A stretch of 64,000 nt of DNA from Centipeda periodontii DSM 2778. Its GTDB lineage: Bacteria; Bacillota; Negativicutes; Selenomonadales; Selenomonadaceae. The stretch covers positions 1,050,905-1,114,904 of the forward strand of contig NZ_GL892076.1 in the NCBI RefSeq assembly GCF_000213975.1, given 5' to 3'. Within the stretch, counting starts at the first letter, position 1. The number at the start of each line of letters is the position of its first letter. Below the pieces are notes generated by a model, which was not told the origin of the DNA, did no database searches, and was given only the letters and a program-made list of their open reading frames with translations. Shown here in pieces: positions 23,015-30,203 of the stretch. The position numbers and the translations under genes were made by a program.

Positions 23015-23467
23015 GTGAAGCCGATGATTGTTATGGGGGCAGATCATGCCGGTTGGAGCATGAAGGAGTTCCTCAAAGAAAAACTTCAAGAAGAGGGATA
23101 TACGATTGTTGACAAGGGAACAGACAGTGAGGAATCCGTAGACTCGCATGACTATGCGGTCACAGTGGGGGAGGAAGTCGCTGCGGCACAGGATAAACTT
23201 GGCATCTTGATCTGCGGCACGGGCATCGGTATGTCGATGTCGGCCAACAAGGTCAACGGCATCCGTGCTTCCTTGGTTTCGGATCTCTTCTCCGCACAGA
23301 TGACACGGGAGCACAATGCGGCAAATATTCTTTGCCTAGGTGCCCGTGTCATTGCAAACCAGATGGCGTGGGAAATCACAAAGGTCTGGTTGGCATCAGA
23401 GCCGCTTGGCGGAAAGTATGCGAACCGCGTGACGAAAATAATGGACTACGAGAAAACCAGAACCTAA
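23015..23467 (+). CDS. rpiB: Ribose-5-phosphate isomerase B
   Basis: RpiB interconverts ribose 5-phosphate and ribulose 5-phosphate. The 150-residue product has GADHAGWSMKEFLKE, the catalytic region LICGTGIGMSMSANKVNGIRA with the active-site cysteine, and MTREHNAANILCLGARV. The start is GTG at 23015, 7 nt after GAGGAGGG. It follows ftsZ by 29 nt and is ended by a terminator. The related LacAB isomerases are possible alternatives, but the single-gene setting favours RpiB. Confidence 0.9.
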   Translation: MKPMIVMGADHAGWSMKEFLKEKLQEEGYTIVDKGTDSEESVDSHDYAVTVGEEVAAAQDKLGILICGTGIGMSMSANKVNGIRASLVSDLFSAQMTREHNAANILCLGARVIANQMAWEITKVWLASEPLGGKYANRVTKIMDYEKTRT

Positions 23468-23524: not shown

Positions 23525-23584
23525 TATGCGGAAAGAAGAGGATTGCTTCGGAGTGCCTCTGCGGCTTTCACCTTGTGTTATCTA

Positions 23585-23603
23585 TTTCCACATTTTGTGG
23601 AAA
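23585..23603. promoter_or_regulatory. Palindrome TTTCCACA-TTT-TGTGGAAA, operator-like
   Basis: A perfect 8-bp inverted repeat with 3-bp spacer lies upstream of a TGGAAA-17-TACAAT promoter (23613-23618 and 23636-23641) of the small HTH gene. Position near -60 would suit an activator. The binding protein is unknown. Confidence 0.4.
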
Positions 23604-23664
23604 ATGTCGAACTGGAAATGTAAAAGTATTCTGTTTACAATAGAAAATGTCAGGAGGTGAGCAT

Positions 23665-23847
23665 ATGAAGGTTCAAAATCGGCGTGTCATCTCGCTGTTA
23701 AAAATTTTTCACGAGAAAACAAATCTCGTCACGAGCCATTACCTCGCGCAAGTGCTTGGCGTCAGTACGAGAACGGTACGCAGTGACATCAAAGAACTGA
23801 GCAACTTGTTGAAAAAGTGCGGTGCCTGCATTGCCGCAACCACTTAA
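23665..23847 (+). CDS. Solo helix-turn-helix protein (truncated PRD-regulator-like)
   Basis: The 60-residue product is only an N-terminal winged-helix region: KVQNRRVISLLKIFHEKTNLVTSHYLAQVLGVSTRTVRSDIKELSNLLKKCG. It resembles the first 60 residues of the PRD regulator encoded at 24830 (both share STRTVRSDIK- or SSRTIRSDIK-type recognition helices). The strong Shine-Dalgarno AGGAGGTGA (23651-23659) and a promoter suggest it is expressed. It ends in a clean stop and no PRD or PTS-like domain follows in any frame before the aldolase gene, so it is either a remnant of a larger regulator or a genuine small DNA-binding protein. Confidence 0.6.
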   Translation: MKVQNRRVISLLKIFHEKTNLVTSHYLAQVLGVSTRTVRSDIKELSNLLKKCGACIAATT

Positions 23848-23870
23848 ACGTTCGTTCCCTTGTGAGAAAT

Positions 23871-23913
23871 TTGTCAACTGTTCTTGACAATATCAGAATG
23901 TATCATATTATAT
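23871..23913 (+). promoter_or_regulatory. Aldolase promoter overlapped by inverted repeat TTGTCAA-N6-TTGACAA
   Basis: TTGTCAA (23871-23877) and TTGACAA (23884-23890) form a perfect 7-bp inverted repeat whose right arm is the -35 hexamer TTGACA. A -10 (TATTAT at 23906 or TTATAT at 23908) follows at 16-18 bp. The layout is that of a repressor operator. Confidence 0.55.
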
Positions 23914-23943
23914 TTGTTAAAGTGAATATTATGGGGTGATCTC

Positions 23944-24597
23944 ATGACGAAAGAAGAAGAGGTTGTATTTTACGCAAAGATTCTGGATGAGAAGGGGCTG
24001 GTCAACTCTCTGGAGGGCAATATCTCCATACTTGACCGAGAGACGGGAAAACTCTACATCACGCCCTCGGGCAAGAGAAAATCCCTGCTCACGCCGGAGA
24101 TGATCGCTGTGATGGATGGGGACACGCAGATCGGCGGGAATTGTAAGTATTCCAGTGAGTACCTTCTGCATCAGGCGGCGCTGCGTGCGCGTCCCGATTG
24201 TAATGCGGCAGTGCATACACATGCGCCGTATCTCACGGCGTTTGCGTTTTGCAATCAGCACGTTCGCCTGCGCTGTTCGACGACGTTTGGACTCCTGTTC
24301 GAGGATATCCCCTGTCTGCCGTACGGGCAGCCGGGAACTGCTGCGATTGCGGCTGGCATCGAGGACGCGATGGCGAACCGTGATCTCGTGCTTTTGGCAA
24401 ATCACGGGTGCCTCACGGTAGGACCGACGCTGGAAGCGGCGGTTGCGATTCTCGAGGCGGGGGAGGAGGTCATGAAGATCTATTCTCTGGCGAAATCAAT
24501 CGGTGCGGTCAGCGATATTCCGGAAGAGGCATGGGAGCGCATGTGCAACGAACATGCGGGCAGTGTGCGGAATCGACATAAGCCTGTAAATCGATAA
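23944..24597 (+). CDS. Class II aldolase, L-fuculose-1-phosphate aldolase-like
   Basis: Family members cleave ketose 1-phosphates to DHAP and an aldehyde with Zn2+, or act as epimerases (AraD). The 217-residue product keeps the zinc and catalytic residues with nearly the numbering of E. coli FucA: Glu72 (SSEYLLHQ), His91 and His93 (VHTHAPY), His154 (LANHG). The real substrate cannot be read from the sequence. Next to it lie a PRD regulator, a Gat-type PTS and a polyol dehydrogenase, which suggests cleavage of a ketose 1-phosphate made from a PTS-imported polyol. It has its own promoter with an operator-like repeat. Confidence 0.85.
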   Translation: MTKEEEVVFYAKILDEKGLVNSLEGNISILDRETGKLYITPSGKRKSLLTPEMIAVMDGDTQIGGNCKYSSEYLLHQAALRARPDCNAAVHTHAPYLTAFAFCNQHVRLRCSTTFGLLFEDIPCLPYGQPGTAAIAAGIEDAMANRDLVLLANHGCLTVGPTLEAAVAILEAGEEVMKIYSLAKSIGAVSDIPEEAWERMCNEHAGSVRNRHKPVNR

Positions 24598-24612
24598 ATC
24601 TGTTCACCATAA

Positions 24613-24648
24613 CAAAAGGCGTCGCTGTGAAAAACGGCGGCGCTTTTC
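24613..24648 (+). terminator. Hairpin after the aldolase gene
   Basis: An imperfect stem (AAAAGGCGTCGC with GGCGGCGCTTTT) with a T-run in the 3' arm. Probable terminator, so the regulator gene downstream is a separate unit. The rest of 24649-24784 shows no recognisable feature. Confidence 0.5.
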
Positions 24649-24784
24649 GTATGTCAGGTTTTCACGTCTTGTTCATTTTCCGGTGGAGATGAATTTGTTT
24701 CAGAGAGGGGAATGCGGAAGAGTATGAGCGGATTTCCGTAATTTAAGGAAGTAAATCAATCTATGAAGTCCCGCAGAGAGATTC

Positions 24785-24790
24785 TATAAT
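24785..24790 (+). promoter_or_regulatory. -10 element of the PRD regulator gene
   Basis: TATAAT lies 40 bp before the start; the -35 region (near 24762) is poor, which may mean activator dependence. Confidence 0.35.
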
Positions 24791-24829
24791 TAATTTATTT
24801 ACATTATCCTATTTGCGGGAGGGATGGCG

Positions 24830-26749
24830 ATGCAGAAGCAGGAACGGTGTAAAAAGATTTTAGAAATGCTGCTCAAGAATCCGGAAGGCATGACCGGCAT
24901 GGAGCTTGCGCGTCGACTGGCTGTCTCCTCTCGAACGATTCGCTCAGATATCAAATCGCTGCAGGAGATGCTCGCAGATCAGCAGTGTCAGATTCTCGCT
25001 GCGCCCAATCGCGGCTATAAACTGCAGCGAGAGGAGACTGCGGAAAATCTGCTGCGCATTGTGGACGGAAAGGGAAAATCCGTCGGTCTGACGAGTGCAG
25101 GTGAGCAGCAGAACTATATCATCAGTCGCTTTCTGGAGTGCCTGCTGCAGGATACATCCGTTACGCAGATGACGCTTGCCGATGAGATGTATGTTGGGCT
25201 CTCGACCATCAAAAACTACCTGAGTACGACGCGGGAACGCTTTGCGGAGTATGATATCAAGGTTGTGTTGTATAAGACGGAAGGTCTGCGCATCGAGGGG
25301 GCGGAGGGAGATCTGCGCAGCTTTATCGTGGACTATCTGCATGAAGTGCGGGATGAAAGGGTGCGAAGTCTGCTGTTTGACAAGATCAGCTGTGAAGCAA
25401 TGGACAAGATTTTGTCGCAGACGGCGAGCATCCGCAATCTCCAGTTGACGGATACAGCGCGTCATGATCTCGCCGTACAGACAGCACTTGCCATTCAAAG
25501 ATCCACTATGGAACACACAATCGAATGCCGTACCAGTATGGCGCAGAAGCTGGAGGAAACCTTTGAGTACAGTGCGGCGAAAGAGGTTGCAAACGAAATC
25601 TTTCGTTATACCGGCATGGACATCCCATACAGCGAGGTGTTCTATATCACACAGTGCCTTCTGACGGGCAAGAAGCTGCTGGATATCGGCAGTACCGTCA
25701 ATGATGCCCATGTGAAGGAGCTTGTCGAAAAGGTTCTCGTTGCTGTAGATAAGAAGTTTGGGCTTGATTTTACGGCAGATGAGTACCTAAAGGATGGTCT
25801 CATGCTTCACCTGCGCATTGCGATTGCACGGGTGAAATTTCGCGTCAACATCCGCAATGAACTGCTCAGTTCGGTCAAGCAGGATTACCCCCTTGCCTTT
25901 CAGATTGCCGTATATGCGGCAAAGATGGTACGTGAAATCGACCATATTGAGTTTAACGAGAATGAGATCGGCTACATTGCCCTGCATTTCGGTGCTTCGA
26001 TGAGTCGGAACAGTATGGCCGAGGAGGAACATCCGAAGAATGTCTATGTCGTGTGTTCGGCAGGTCTTGGCGTCTCCGTCCTCATGAAGGCAAAGCTGAA
26101 AGAGCATTTTCGCGGCAGCATCCACGTCATCAGTGTTCTTCCCGCATACAAGCTGACGGCAGAGATGGTGGAGGAGGCAGACTATGTTATCTCCACCGTT
26201 CCGCTTATGATGGATTCCCCGAAAATCATCCGCGTCAACCATATGCTGCGCACGGATGATATTGAGAAGATCCAGCGCATCATGTTCCAAAAGCAGGATG
26301 TTCTAGATGCGGAGATCGTTCGGCAATTCTTTCGTGAAGAGAGCTTCTATGTGGATCGAGAATTCCGTACACGCGAAGAGTGCTTGGAGTTTCTCACGGA
26401 TGAAGCGGTTGCAAATGGATGGATGGATGCAGAAGGAAAGAGTTCCGTATTTGAACGCGAACGTATGTCCTCGACGAGTATTGGAAATTTTGCTGCGATA
26501 CCGCATGCGATCTCTACGGAATGTGTCGTTTCGAATATTTCCGTGCTCATCCTAAAAGATCCGGTACATTGGGAGGATTTCCCCGTGCGTGTCGTCTTTC
26601 TGCTCAATATTGAGCAGACGAAAGCAGCTCTTTGGGAGAAGCTCTTTCTCAAACTCTACGAGTTCATCAAAGAACATCATGGATTGGAATCCCTGCTCAA
26701 ACATAAATCCTATGAGAGATTTCTCGAGGAGTTCACGGCGGTCTTATGA
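24830..26749 (+). CDS. PRD-containing transcriptional activator with PTS EIIB- and EIIA-like domains (MtlR/LicR type)
   Basis: Regulators of this class are controlled by PTS phosphorylation. The 639-residue product has two N-terminal winged-helix regions (residues about 1-65, SSRTIRSDIKSLQEM, and about 90-150, QMTLADEMYVGLSTIKNYL), two PRD domains (about 180-290 and 295-395), a Gat-type EIIB-like domain with Cys409 (VVCSAGLGVSVL), and an EIIA domain with His559 (AIPHAIS). ATG 24830 lies 7 nt after GGGAGGG and is preferred over ATG 24824. The PTS genes directly downstream are the likely targets. The gene ends in its own terminator. Confidence 0.88.
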   Translation: MQKQERCKKILEMLLKNPEGMTGMELARRLAVSSRTIRSDIKSLQEMLADQQCQILAAPNRGYKLQREETAENLLRIVDGKGKSVGLTSAGEQQNYIISRFLECLLQDTSVTQMTLADEMYVGLSTIKNYLSTTRERFAEYDIKVVLYKTEGLRIEGAEGDLRSFIVDYLHEVRDERVRSLLFDKISCEAMDKILSQTASIRNLQLTDTARHDLAVQTALAIQRSTMEHTIECRTSMAQKLEETFEYSAAKEVANEIFRYTGMDIPYSEVFYITQCLLTGKKLLDIGSTVNDAHVKELVEKVLVAVDKKFGLDFTADEYLKDGLMLHLRIAIARVKFRVNIRNELLSSVKQDYPLAFQIAVYAAKMVREIDHIEFNENEIGYIALHFGASMSRNSMAEEEHPKNVYVVCSAGLGVSVLMKAKLKEHFRGSIHVISVLPAYKLTAEMVEEADYVISTVPLMMDSPKIIRVNHMLRTDDIEKIQRIMFQKQDVLDAEIVRQFFREESFYVDREFRTREECLEFLTDEAVANGWMDAEGKSSVFERERMSSTSIGNFAAIPHAISTECVVSNISVLILKDPVHWEDFPVRVVFLLNIEQTKAALWEKLFLKLYEFIKEHHGLESLLKHKSYERFLEEFTAVL

Positions 26750-26764
26750 CCGCCTTTTTTTATT
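26737..26764 (+). terminator. Terminator overlapping the 3' end of the PRD regulator gene
   Basis: GGCGGTC and GACCGCC form a tight hairpin followed by eight T; the stop codon of the gene is in the loop. Confidence 0.85.
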
Positions 26765-26935
26765 GCCGCAGTGAATGTCATACAGATGGATCATTGCGGA
26801 AATGGAAAACGGAAAGCCTTTCTAATATTTCCTCTTTTCAGGAATATTTCAGGAAAGAGATATGCCTATGATGGGAATTTGCTGCTCGGTATAATGAATT
26901 TGCTTCTGAAGGATACGTCGAAAGGAGGGGAGATC

Positions 26936-27406
26936 ATGGATGTTGCACTCAGTGAGGACCTTGTACTCTTGGATGTGGAGGCAGAGGACAATTTCGATCT
27001 GCTGCGTCAGGCGGCACAGCGACTGCATGAGCAGGGCTATGTAAAGGACAGTTATGCAGATGCGGTTGTTGCGCGAGAGAAGGTCTTTGCAACAGGTCTG
27101 CCGACGGTAATGGGCGGCGTCGCAATTCCGCATACGGATGTGGAGCATGTAAATACACCTGCGGTCTGCATTGCGCGTCTCAAGAAGCCAGTGGATTTCA
27201 TCGTCATGGGGGACGATACGGAGACGGTTTCCGTGGACTGCATCTTCATGCTGGCGATGAAGGAGGCACACGCACAGCTGACCCTTTTGCAAAACTTGAT
27301 GGGGATTTTGCAGGATGCAGATGCATTGAAGCTCGTAAAAACGGGTGAATCGGCGCGGAAGATCTGTACGTTCGTCAGAGAGCGTCTGTCGAAGGTAGAA
27401 GAGTGA
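26936..27406 (+). CDS. PTS system EIIA component, fructose/galactitol type
   Basis: EIIA accepts phosphate from HPr and passes it to EIIB. The 156-residue product has the phospho-acceptor His66 in VAIPHTDVEHV and the PTS_EIIA_2 fold pattern (AREKVFATGLPTVMGGVAIPH). The frame is open from 26771, but ATG 26936, 6 nt after AAAGGAGGGG, is clearly the start. A TATAAT at 26890-26895 may be the -10 of this operon. EIIB follows after 29 nt. Confidence 0.9.
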   Translation: MDVALSEDLVLLDVEAEDNFDLLRQAAQRLHEQGYVKDSYADAVVAREKVFATGLPTVMGGVAIPHTDVEHVNTPAVCIARLKKPVDFIVMGDDTETVSVDCIFMLAMKEAHAQLTLLQNLMGILQDADALKLVKTGESARKICTFVRERLSKVEE

Positions 27407-27435
27407 TTATTGATTGTAGAAAGAGAGTGAGCATC

Positions 27436-27729
27436 ATGGCAAATGACAAGAAGGTCGTATTGGTCGCATGTGGAACGGGCATTGCCACATCGACGGTCGT
27501 GAATACCGCACTTGAGAGTCTGGCGAAGGACAACGGAATCCAGATTGAGGTCATCCAGTGCAAGATCATGGAAGTGCCGAGCTACGCGGATCGCGCGGAT
27601 CTGCTCATCACGACGACAGTCGTGGATAAGGATCAGTACAAGTTCCCGGTCATCAATGGACGCCCCTTCCTCACAGGAATGGGTCTCGACAAGACGAAGG
27701 CGGAGATTCTCGCTGAGCTTCAAAAATAG
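27436..27729 (+). CDS. PTS system EIIB component, galactitol type
   Basis: The 97-residue product has the phosphocysteine at residue 12 (VLVACGTGIATSTVV), as in GatB-type EIIB proteins, and ends in a helix (GLDKTKAEILAELQK). It would transfer phosphate from EIIA to the sugar alcohol bound by EIIC. The start is ATG 27436. Confidence 0.9.
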   Translation: MANDKKVVLVACGTGIATSTVVNTALESLAKDNGIQIEVIQCKIMEVPSYADRADLLITTTVVDKDQYKFPVINGRPFLTGMGLDKTKAEILAELQK

Positions 27730-27807
27730 TACAAAGACGGTCTGTTCGGGCGCACGGGTGTAGCAGGGGCTTGTTCATCTCTGCGTCCAAAGAAGGAGGA
27801 ATATTTC

Positions 27808-29082
27808 ATGGAAACTTTGACTCCACTGGTGCAGGCATTTTTGGCACTTGGTCCCACAGTCATCCTGCCGGTTTTCATCTTCTTTATCGGTCTTGGCTTC
27901 GGTCTTGGTCCTGCGAAATCATTTCGTTCCGGACTTACCATCGGCGTCGGATTTGTCGGAATCGGTCTCGTCGTCGCACTGCTCGTCGATAATCTCGGTC
28001 CCGCGGCACAGGCCATGGTTGCGCGCTTCGGCATCAATCTCACGATCATTGACATCGGCTGGCCGGGCTCTGCAAGTCTTGCGTGGGCTTCTCCGATTGC
28101 GGCGATCATGTTGCCCATCGGCCTCCTTGTCAACTTCATCATGCTCATTACGAAGACGACCAAGACGATGGACGTCGATATCTGGAACTACTGGCATTTT
28201 ACGTTCTGCGGCGCATGTGTGTATGCGATCAACGGCAGCATTCCGCTTGCCATTCTGGCAGCGGTGCTCTTTGAGATTGCCATGCTGAAGCTTGCGGACT
28301 GGACGGCACCCTACATGGAGAAATACTATGACCTGCCGGGTGTTTCCGTCCCGACCGGCTCGACAATGGCGAACTCCCTCATTGGTATCCCGCTCATATG
28401 GCTCATTCAGAAGATTCCTGTCATCAAGGATCTCAAGGCTGATCCCGAGACGATCCAGAAGCGCTTCGGAATCTTCGGCGAGCCGATCTTTATGGGCTTG
28501 ATTCTCGGATGTATTCTTGGCGCTCTTGCCGGCTATGATATAGGAAAAACGATTCAGGTCGGCATGGCGATGGCGGGTGTCATGGTGCTCATGCCGCGCA
28601 TGGTGAAGCTCCTCATGGAAGGGTTGATTCCCATTTCCGAGGCAGCGCGCAACTTCCTTCAGAAGCGCTTCGGTGAGGACTCCGAGAACTCCAAGCTCTA
28701 CATCGGTCTTGACGCTGCTGTGACGACGGGGCATCCTGCCGTCATCGCAACTGCACTCATCCTCGTTCCGCTGACGCTGCTGCTCGCCGTCATTCTGCCG
28801 GGGAACAATATGCTGCCCTTCGGCGATCTGGCAACGATCCCGTTCTTTGTCGCAATGATCGTTGCGGCTGCACGCGGCAACATCATTCACTCAGTTCTCA
28901 GCGGTTTGGTTGTGATCGGCGTCTGCCTGTTGATGGGTACAGCACTGGCAGAGTTTCAGACATCGATGGGCGTCACGGCGAACTTCAAGATGCCGGAAGG
29001 TGCTGCGCTCATCTCAAGCATCGACCAAGCGGGTAATCTCGTCAATTTCATTATCTTTAAGCTGATATCGCTGTTCGCTTGA
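27808..29082 (+). CDS. PTS system EIIC component, galactitol (Gat) family
   Basis: EIIC is the membrane channel that imports and phosphorylates the substrate. The 424-residue protein is polytopic (about 10 segments) and has Gat-family features: LGPTVILPVFIFFIGLGFGLG at the N-terminus, WPGSASLAWASPIAAIMLP, DAAVTTGHPAVIATALIL and LPGNNMLPFGDLATIPFF. ATG 27808 follows AAGGAGG. Substrates of this family include galactitol, arabitol and other polyols; the exact one is unknown. Confidence 0.9.
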   Translation: METLTPLVQAFLALGPTVILPVFIFFIGLGFGLGPAKSFRSGLTIGVGFVGIGLVVALLVDNLGPAAQAMVARFGINLTIIDIGWPGSASLAWASPIAAIMLPIGLLVNFIMLITKTTKTMDVDIWNYWHFTFCGACVYAINGSIPLAILAAVLFEIAMLKLADWTAPYMEKYYDLPGVSVPTGSTMANSLIGIPLIWLIQKIPVIKDLKADPETIQKRFGIFGEPIFMGLILGCILGALAGYDIGKTIQVGMAMAGVMVLMPRMVKLLMEGLIPISEAARNFLQKRFGEDSENSKLYIGLDAAVTTGHPAVIATALILVPLTLLLAVILPGNNMLPFGDLATIPFFVAMIVAAARGNIIHSVLSGLVVIGVCLLMGTALAEFQTSMGVTANFKMPEGAALISSIDQAGNLVNFIIFKLISLFA

Positions 29083-29099
29083 GCAGATATTATTTCATG

Positions 29100-29138
29100 G
29101 GGCAGGGAGCAGGTTCGTGAGAACAGGCGTCCCTGCCC
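29100..29138 (+). terminator. Two-tier hairpin between EIIC and dehydrogenase genes
   Basis: GGGCAGGGA pairs with TCCCTGCCC over 9 bp, with a small inner stem GTTC-GTGA-GAAC. Only TTTA follows, so it may partly terminate or protect the PTS mRNA and lower expression of the dehydrogenase. Confidence 0.45.
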
Positions 29139-29165
29139 TTTACACAGGCGATAGGAGGAACTATC

Positions 29166-30203
29166 ATGAAGGCATTGGTCAAGGTCGCGAAGGGCGCGGG
29201 CAACTGGAATGTGATTGATAAGCCGGAGCCCGTTGTCGGCGAGGGACAGGTCAAGATTCGCGTGGAATACATCGGCATCTGCGGCAGTGATCTTCACACG
29301 TTCGAGGGGCATTACAACGTGGATGCCGAAGGGCTGACGATCGGTCATGAGTTTGCCGGTGTCGTCGCCGAAGTTGGCGCGGGCGTTACGAATGTGAAGG
29401 TCGGTGACCGTGTGACCTCCGAGACAACCTTTGAGATCTGCGGACACTGCCGCTACTGTGAGCGCGGGGAGTACAATCTCTGCTCGAGCCGCAAGGGGCT
29501 CGGTACGCAGCAGGACGGCGCCATGGCGCAGTACATTCTCACGCGTGCAAAGAGTCTGCACATCCTGCCGGAGAACGTGACGACGCGGCAGGCATCCATC
29601 ACGGAGGCGGCGGCGTGCGCGTATCATAGTGTCAATAAAGCGAAGATCACGAAAGGGGATATTGTCCTCGTCCTCGGACCCGGTCCCATCGGACTGCTCG
29701 TAGCGCAGGTCGTCATGGCATACGGTGGACGCGTTGTGATGACCGGTCTGACGCAGGATATGGGACGCCTCACGATTGCGAAGGAAAAATTCGGTGTGGA
29801 GCGCATTGTGGACGTGCAGAAGGAAGATGTCAAGGAGATTGTAAACTCCCTCACCGAGGACTATGGCGCCGATGTCTGCTATGACTGCACGGGCGCGGTT
29901 CCCTCCATGCAGCTTGGCATGGATCTCCTCAAGAAGGGCGGACAGTATGTGCAGGTCGGGCTCTTTGCGAAGAACGAAGTGACGGTCGATTTCTCCAAGA
30001 TCATCCAGAAGGAACTGACCGTTGTCGGCAGCCGCAGCCAGAACACGCATGATTGGGAACCGACGCTCAGGCTCATGAGCGAGCGCAAGATTGACGCGGA
30101 CAAGATGATCACGCACGAGGTTGGCATCGACGAGTGGGATAAGGCGTATCATCTGCTCAAGGGCGGTGAGGCGACTAAGATCGTCATGCACCCGATCGGA
30201 TAA
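29166..30203 (+). CDS. Zinc-dependent polyol dehydrogenase (GatD/SorD-like)
   Basis: Medium-chain dehydrogenases of this type oxidise polyols or polyol phosphates with NAD(P)+. The 345-residue product has catalytic-zinc residues Cys39 (GICGSDLH) and His61-Glu62 (IGHEF), structural-zinc cysteines 92, 95, 98 and 106 (CGHCRYCERGEYNLC) and a Rossmann motif LGPGPIGLLVAQV. Next to the Gat-type PTS it most likely oxidises the imported polyol phosphate. Oxidation at the carbon next to the phosphate would give a ketose 1-phosphate suited to the upstream aldolase (inference). Confidence 0.88.
   Translation: MKALVKVAKGAGNWNVIDKPEPVVGEGQVKIRVEYIGICGSDLHTFEGHYNVDAEGLTIGHEFAGVVAEVGAGVTNVKVGDRVTSETTFEICGHCRYCERGEYNLCSSRKGLGTQQDGAMAQYILTRAKSLHILPENVTTRQASITEAAACAYHSVNKAKITKGDIVLVLGPGPIGLLVAQVVMAYGGRVVMTGLTQDMGRLTIAKEKFGVERIVDVQKEDVKEIVNSLTEDYGADVCYDCTGAVPSMQLGMDLLKKGGQYVQVGLFAKNEVTVDFSKIIQKELTVVGSRSQNTHDWEPTLRLMSERKIDADKMITHEVGIDEWDKAYHLLKGGEATKIVMHPIG

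Follow-up and report, generated by a model that had tools for sequence, protein, structure and literature searches.

A predicted pentitol phosphotransferase operon of Centipeda periodontii adjoins a class II aldolase that probably survives from a second, mostly deleted operon

The stretch of DNA analyzed here (the window; 64,000 nucleotides of the 2.76-Mb genome of Centipeda periodontii DSM 2778, contig NZ_GL892076.1, positions 1,050,905 to 1,114,904) contains an island of plus-strand genes with family matches to a class II aldolase, a PRD regulator, the EIIA, EIIB and EIIC components of a Gat-type phosphotransferase system (PTS) and a zinc dehydrogenase, as a preliminary description of the sequence had stated. 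That description joined these parts into one kinase-free pathway running from a polyol through polyol 1-phosphate and ketose 1-phosphate to dihydroxyacetone phosphate (DHAP) and an aldehyde. We favor a different reading, with a probability of roughly 80%, in which the island is a collage of an arabitol-type (atl-type) pentitol operon (operon A: PRD regulator, EIIA, EIIB, EIIC and zinc dehydrogenase, 24824-30203) and a lone aldolase from a mostly deleted operon B. This reading is drawn from what the sequence shows of the gene content and the junction, and from the fact that operon A and the aldolase occur apart from each other. Genomes used for comparison are designated G and fetched loci L; Selenomonas artemidis (G003) belongs to the same genus as the window genome.

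Probable remnants of operon B at a deletion junction

Operon B, as found in relatives, comprises a regulator, another dehydrogenase, another GatABC and the aldolase. In G031, a genome of another genus, the order is regulator, dehydrogenase, EIIB, EIIC, EIIA and aldolase. Around the window aldolase lie the following features.

23585-23603, no strand: inverted repeat TTTCC-N9-GGAAA, putative operator of the lost operon B, present in G031 with a paired two-base change
23613-23641, plus strand: predicted sigma-70-like relic promoter, 9 of 12 consensus matches, in a segment 85% identical to G031
23665-23847, plus strand: 60-codon mini open reading frame (mini-ORF), putative relic of the operon B PRD regulator (55 codons plus 5 transposase-end codons)
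23830-23894, plus strand: right end, 65 bp, of a presumed IS3-like insertion sequence (IS) and apparent deletion junction, with a 24-base end that recurs
23884-23911, plus strand: predicted hybrid promoter, 11 of 12 consensus matches, spacer 16
23944-24597, plus strand: class II aldolase, putative operon B survivor (Pfam Aldolase_II, 149 bits; 93% identical to the operon-B aldolase of G031)
24623-24642, plus strand: terminator-like hairpin 3′ of the aldolase, predicted from sequence

Window positions 23584-23831 share 85% DNA identity with the operator, promoter and first codons of G031 operon B, positions 23889-24590 share 89% with the G031 aldolase and its leader, and the 5.0 kb between these two G031 segments are absent from the window. 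The mini-ORF relic matches the G031 regulator with 84% identity over 64 residues (tblastn), and its tail, IAATT, matches the C-terminus of the transposase. The position of this mini-ORF and of the 65-bp IS end just 5′ of the aldolase indicates that the aldolase belongs to another, mostly deleted operon and is not merely the leading gene of the PTS operon. Operon B would have lost about 5 kb at this site through a deletion ending in the IS end, leaving behind its operator, its promoter, 55 regulator codons, the IS end and the aldolase.

The 24-base IS end is present in four copies in this genome (the junction included) and in 6 of the 15 genomes searched; a reversed 24-base control pattern gave no matches. 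Fuller copies of the element terminate in the same bases; those of this genome code for a transposase with an integrase core (PF00665), whose last residues are also those of the mini-ORF. From its two-ORF layout we take the element to be IS3-like. Flanks were inspected for 20 of the 30 IS-end matches. The same 65-bp form, with a nearly identical left boundary, occurs at L106 and L107, which with the window makes three unrelated places, and 28-bp palindromic forms of the IS end occur at L102, L109 and L111. In the predicted hybrid promoter, TTGACA comes from the insertion sequence and TATTAT from the native aldolase leader. The IS end would probably give the aldolase a new promoter, which could explain how the gene can still be read.

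Separate occurrence of the two parts

The preliminary description had proposed co-occurrence of the five genes as a check, and the dehydrogenase and the aldolase turn out not to be inherited together. With part of the first-look candidates scored in some genomes, and with the window genome included in both counts, the dehydrogenase was found at E <= 1e-110 in 33 of 380 genomes of the class and the aldolase at E <= 1e-70 in 9 of 380. Among the 32 other genomes with the dehydrogenase, 26 have no aldolase at the latter threshold. The remaining six carry both genes apart from each other, on different contigs in G036, G128, G164 and G167 and at distances of 212 kb (if circular) in G031 and 750 kb in G040; in G164 the contig that carries the aldolase is only 11,894 bases long.

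The same separation is seen at the locus itself. Operon A lies between ftsZ and aroH/ubiB also in the same-genus genomes G001, G004, G010 and G013, and all four, each with an intact dehydrogenase, are without this aldolase. The best aldolase matches there are distant family members (E values of 4e-23 in G001, 2e-24 in G004 and 9e-22 in G010), and the search of G013 gave no match. In G001 the stretch from window position 24612 onward is 79% identical to the window, yet the aldolase is absent there. Fifteen other genomes have the dehydrogenase at E <= 1e-60, and 13 of these loci were fetched (G057 and G059 were left out; at L077 the PTS genes fall beyond the contig end). These 13 operon-A loci, which include the S. 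artemidis remnant but not the window, all lack the aldolase. Twelve of them have an intact dehydrogenase, and in 10 of these RpiB, Rpe-like or transketolase genes lie nearby. The Rpe-like matches of G001 and G010 are only 26-28% identical, and both genomes also carry RpiB.

From the side of the aldolase, the gene was found in 10 genomes, the 9 of the class and Candidatus Anaerostipes excrementavium; a scan of genome contigs returned five aldolase loci, four of them in G003, G164, G167 and G036. The dehydrogenase-PTS-aldolase core of operon B is intact in six of the 10 (G031, G040, G047, G128, Pectinatus frisingensis (G164) and Anaerostipes). In the other four, namely the window genome, S. artemidis and two Propionispira, the aldolase stands without the operon B PTS and dehydrogenase. 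No operon B relic was found beside the aldolase of S. artemidis, and the two Propionispira loci have distant PRD and PTS relatives alone beside theirs. The operon B dehydrogenase and EIIC fall into clades separate from those of the window proteins (SH-aLRT 100 each, quick trees), and the EIICs of the two operons are 34% identical. A single five-gene pathway was rejected on the grounds that the aldolase appears to have its origin in a different operon, one that has a separate PTS and dehydrogenase.

Comparison with G031 also bears on how operon B came to be here. Identity at four-fold sites reaches 0.75 in the aldolase, compared with 0.45 in FtsZ and 0.46 in the operon-A dehydrogenase, and the corresponding protein identities are 93%, 68% and 81%. 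The divergence of the aldolase from G031 is too small for vertical descent, and its four-fold-site identity, far above that of FtsZ, argues that operon B moved between the lineages after their split. Because operon B is absent in most of the genus, it was most likely received by this lineage rather than donated. Since the divergence from G031, the aldolase has accumulated nonsynonymous changes at dN 0.04 against synonymous changes at dS 0.44 (dN/dS of about 0.09, a ratio that may partly predate the deletion; several dS values in the comparison were saturated or failed).

Operon A as a predicted pentitol system

On the plus strand, ftsZ is followed by rpiB, the mini-ORF, the aldolase and the genes of operon A in the order regulator, EIIA, EIIB, EIIC and zinc dehydrogenase, after which come aroH, encoding a chorismate mutase, and a ubiB-like gene on the opposite strand. 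The features of this part are as follows, with the start codons of EIIA and EIIB picked by homology.

23015-23467, plus strand: second ribose-5-phosphate isomerase B (RpiB; TIGR01120, 155 bits against a cut-off of 138.65)
24733-24751, no strand: inverted repeat 5′ of operon A, TTTCCGTAATTTAAGGAAG, similar to that of operon B; exact TTTCC-N9-GGAAA in G001
24824-26749, plus strand: operon A PRD regulator (HTH_11, Mga, PRD and EIIA matches; an EIIB-like stretch scores slightly below its cut-off), with same-locus orthologues in G001, G004, G010 and G013
26829-26844, no strand: TTCC-N8-GGAA site 5′ of EIIA, the same site occurring in G004
26936-27406, plus strand: EIIA, Gat/Fru type (PF00359, 118 bits for the longer frame 26771-27403)
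27436-27729, plus strand: EIIB, Gat type (PF02302, 56 bits for the longer frame 27403-27726)
27808-29082, plus strand: EIIC (TIGR00827, 554.3 bits against a cut-off of 542.2), in a clade with Listeria and Peribacillus pentitol-type EIICs
29166-30203, plus strand: zinc dehydrogenase, predicted pentitol-phosphate dehydrogenase from its clade in the dehydrogenase tree (SH-aLRT 100)

Operon A looks like an arabitol-type (atl) pentitol PTS operon. Its gene order agrees with that of the atl operon in Table 3 of PMC6685057 and with that of Peribacillus. The dehydrogenase groups with those of Peribacillus, Listeria, L. salivarius and E. raffinosus (SH-aLRT 100), apart from the operon-B dehydrogenases and GatD, and the EIIC groups with the pentitol-type EIICs of Listeria and Peribacillus (SH-aLRT 96), E. 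coli GatC falling outside. These are quick trees without bootstrap, in which long branches were flagged for E. coli GatD and for the join of the operon-B dehydrogenases with those of operon A; the dehydrogenase tree retains one row with a stop (G047 DH3). Peribacillus and a Listeria record take the place of characterized proteins in the comparison set, which did not include B. methanolicus AtlD or the E. avium enzyme.

The PTS would import a pentitol as its phosphate, D-arabitol being the likeliest substrate and xylitol or ribitol possible ones. The zinc dehydrogenase would then oxidize the pentitol phosphate to a pentulose 5-phosphate, which may pass into the pentose phosphate pathway with the aid of the extra RpiB encoded at 23015-23467. 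A kinase-free route from polyol through polyol phosphate to ketose phosphate is the best reading of the PTS and dehydrogenase, and to this extent the preliminary proposal stands; its further step, in which the aldolase acts next, is disfavored by the different operon origin of that gene. The upstream rpiB was considered as the sole housekeeping copy and rejected, as another RpiB is present in all six genomes searched. A second full copy occurs only in the window genome, G001 and G010, where it adjoins operon A, and a third match in the window genome is broken and below cut-off.

One close counterpart among known systems is the atl cluster of Bacillus methanolicus MGA3 (regulator, atlA, atlB, atlC and atlD; arabitol-induced), which has the same gene order. 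According to the available text of PMC6685057, its genes, annotated as a galactitol PTS and a sorbitol dehydrogenase, serve D-arabitol; complementation backed atlD and left the role of atlABC undemonstrated; and no kinase is named there in the induced cluster, as in operon A. Unlike that system as described there, operon A has no second dehydrogenase or MtnA-like gene, and its regulator is only distantly related (25% identity to the Peribacillus stand-in), operon A itself being known from sequence. Listeria monocytogenes takes up D-arabitol and D-xylitol via PTS transporters, as stated in the accessible portion of PMC10667646. A pentitol-type cluster of L. monocytogenes (NZ_LR134400.1) encodes an EIIC and a dehydrogenase 58% and 49% identical to those of operon A. 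It has RpiB, Rpe and transketolase genes downstream, whereas operon A has one RpiB upstream, and it includes a GatD-like second dehydrogenase that the window operon lacks. The E. coli gat operon shares with operon A the Gat-type EIIA, EIIB and EIIC and a zinc dehydrogenase but differs in having GatY and GatZ, and its EIIC is 41% identical and belongs to another clade.

These comparisons bear on whether operon A might be a galactitol system whose kinase and aldolase are encoded elsewhere in the genome. The EIIC exceeds the galactitol-specific cut-off, the genome elsewhere has a Gat-type PTS with a class II fructose-bisphosphate aldolase (FBA)-type aldolase and an FGGY-type kinase, and one 1-phosphofructokinase (1-PFK)-type kinase above cut-off is also found elsewhere. 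Against this, the GatD, GatA and GatB equivalog cut-offs were missed (149.7 of 550, 76.3 of 139 and 78.7 of 95 bits), and the EIIC groups with pentitol-type systems apart from E. coli GatC. The B. methanolicus atl genes likewise carry a galactitol-PTS annotation, and the accessible part of PMC6685057 reports no growth on galactitol. We consider a galactitol system very improbable. The preliminary description is supported in that this does not resemble classical galactitol use, a candidate that we rejected on the same cut-offs and EIIC clade, and right about the missing enzymes: no tagatose-6-phosphate kinase or tagatose-bisphosphate aldolase was found among the family-scanned genes at 23944-30203, and no 1-PFK-type kinase matched within the window.

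Operon A itself varies within the genus. In S. artemidis (L079:6741-8070) it has collapsed, the first 266 codons of the regulator being fused to the last half of the dehydrogenase. In G001 and G010 (L069 and L071), an EIIB-EIIC(-second dehydrogenase) cassette has been exchanged at the same locus relative to window 27404-29153, with EIIC 62% and EIIB 58-59% identical to those of the window and the flanking EIIA and dehydrogenase 84-95% identical; G004 and G013 have the cassette type of the window. The exchange looks like a specificity swap within the operon. Between rpiB and operon A, G001 has a truncated IS200-like transposase (PF01797; L069:11520-11826), where the window has the relic and the aldolase.

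The orphan aldolase

As the preliminary description had noted, the aldolase keeps the FucA residues Glu72, His91, His93 and His154, which align with Glu73, His92, His94 and His155 of E. coli FucA. The enzyme is thus like FucA, as described in the available text of PMC11841055, in its zinc histidines, its base (Glu73 there) and its phosphate pocket (Asn26, Ser42, Gly43, Ser70 and Ser71, with Ser42 at the place of FucA Thr43). It is unlike FucA in being 26% identical, in not sharing Tyr113 and Phe76 (the latter is Leu here) and in failing to reach the NCBIfam equivalog cut-offs (TIGR01086, 73.8 of 400; NF005302, 114.6 of 264). The catalytic Tyr113 of the neighboring subunit, which in FucA deprotonates the C4 hydroxyl according to the same text, is Ser in the window aldolase and its six aligned orthologues (7 of 7), and the alignment places no Tyr within residues 104-121 of the window protein. 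An alignment to 6btd, shifted by one, places Thr at this position, the L086 aldolase has a Tyr a few residues past it, and a more distant FucA-like aldolase of the same genome retains Tyr113. A role as ribulose-5-phosphate 4-epimerase (AraD) was rejected, because E. coli AraD has Asp where this protein has Glu72. Among solved structures the best relative is 6btd (phmmer, 100 bits), which we take to be a 5-deoxyribulose 1-phosphate aldolase, and a phosphorylated ketose is a fair guess for the substrate. A plasmid search with the aldolase found solely relatives below 60% identity; literature searches yielded no paper on a ribulose 1-phosphate aldolase with arabitol and nothing to the point on DrdA.

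What the gene does now admits more than one answer. It may have taken on an independent role, such as the cleavage of 5-deoxyribulose 1-phosphate or another stray ketose 1-phosphate, a suggestion we hold tentatively. Four of the 10 genomes keep it without the PTS and dehydrogenase of operon B, which is consistent with this, as is its relation to 6btd, but that relation is distant, the FucA Tyr113 is missing and no salvage isomerase or kinase was recognized among the scanned island genes. We are similarly hesitant about the aldolase being a dying remnant with no present role. Most of operon B is gone, and little of operon A is left in S. artemidis, a member of the same genus; the full-length open frame, the low dN/dS relative to G031 and the strong promoter-like site speak against decay.

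Operator-like repeats and evidence for a connection between the operons

The 200 bp preceding the operon start contain a site of the form TTCC-N8/9-GGAA in 9 of 20 cases for operon A and in 4 of 7 for operon B, compared with 74 of 4000 random 200-mers and shuffle means of 0.19 of 20 and 0.04 of 7, in counts that come from related, nonindependent genomes and with a pattern chosen after some sites had been seen. Because operons A and B share this operator-like motif and the regulators of the aldolase operons in G040 and Pectinatus resemble that of operon A, the aldolase may be coregulated with operon A.

This is one of several considerations that weigh against a collage of unrelated parts or against the atl-type assignment of operon A. 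If the shared operator is real, the operon A regulator could act on the relic promoter. The regulators in G040 and Pectinatus are 51% and 47% identical to that of operon A. The aldolase of Propionispira arboris adjoins another Gat-type PTS operon, which includes a GatD-like dehydrogenase and, on visual inspection, also a PfkB-type kinase and an FBA-type aldolase, and neighborhoods with the aldolase beside a Gat-type PTS recur. The recurrence of the 65-bp IS form at L106 and L107 is not explained by a simple one-off deletion. Among the fetched loci, the operons of G004 and G013 have no linked pentose-phosphate gene. As to the assignment, the EIIC exceeds an NCBIfam cut-off for galactitol specificity, the regulator is 22-25% identical to those of Listeria and Peribacillus in partial alignments, B. 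methanolicus AtlD is represented by the Peribacillus gene at the corresponding position, and the Listeria EIIC used for comparison is presumably the characterized AltC.

Some of the same evidence would suit cooperation of the window PTS, dehydrogenase and aldolase in the route to DHAP and an aldehyde. The genes are physically close, similar operator-like repeats precede the relic and operon A, the aldolase retains its four FucA residues and phosphate pocket and has been conserved since its split from G031, and the P. arboris aldolase, again without operon B, has a dehydrogenase-containing Gat-type PTS operon as its neighbor. The derivation of the aldolase from an operon with its own PTS and dehydrogenase, its absence from operon A in the four same-genus genomes and the linkage of operon A to pentose-phosphate genes instead make such a joint pathway improbable, and we retain the reading of the island as a collage of operon A and an operon B survivor.

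Intact operon B in relatives

The kinase-free aldolase route of the preliminary description is a fair hypothesis for intact operon B, judged from gene content. In G031, G128 and Anaerostipes, operon B consists of the PTS, dehydrogenase and aldolase alone, with or without the regulator in view, and no pentose-phosphate genes were found within the fetched stretch. In G040, G047 and Pectinatus the operon is extended by Rpe-like, 6-phospho-3-hexuloisomerase-like, RpiB and GatD-like genes, with a transketolase too in G047; the gene families were tested on G040. A 6-phospho-3-hexuloisomerase (HxlB, 204 bits against a cut-off of 160) with Rpe-like neighbors lies in an extended operon B at L035:4191-4730, and none of the four G040 operon-B proteins scanned had 3-hexulose-6-phosphate synthase as its sole match. 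We speculate, with low confidence in the two parts taken together, that intact operon B may encode an undescribed kinase-free polyol route ending in ketose-phosphate aldol cleavage by a class II aldolase that does without Tyr113 and that here the aldolase, rewired by the IS promoter and the shared operator, may drain a by-product of operon A.

Other polyol-type loci and implications

The same genome has further loci of this kind. At L038:4989-9613 (C1, about 2.053-2.058 Mb), Gat-type EIIA, EIIB and EIIC genes precede a FucA-like aldolase that has Tyr113, after which come DhaK and DhaL (Dak1 and Dak2), no dehydrogenase being recognized among its genes; by gene content this appears to be the better PTS and aldolase candidate in this genome. 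L048:6703-11672 (C1, about 0.937 Mb) has in a row an HPr-like protein, a Gat-type EIIC, a short-chain dehydrogenase and an FGGY kinase, with no EIIA or EIIB recognized adjoining. At L047:6229-11516 (C1, about 1.446-1.450 Mb), a regulator that looks GntR-like on visual inspection accompanies Gat-type EIIA, EIIB and EIIC, an FGGY-type kinase and an FBA-type aldolase of class II.

Gene neighborhood can mislead, as in this island, where adjacent genes would come from two operons, one of them lost but with a relic still legible in the DNA. For this PTS, pentitol phosphates become the compounds to assay in place of galactitol and ketose 1-phosphates, and a kinase-free polyol route is better sought in the intact operon B of Pectinatus, Anaerostipes and relatives. 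That polyol genes are lost and swapped within the genus has a bearing on the range of sugar alcohols fermented by its species.

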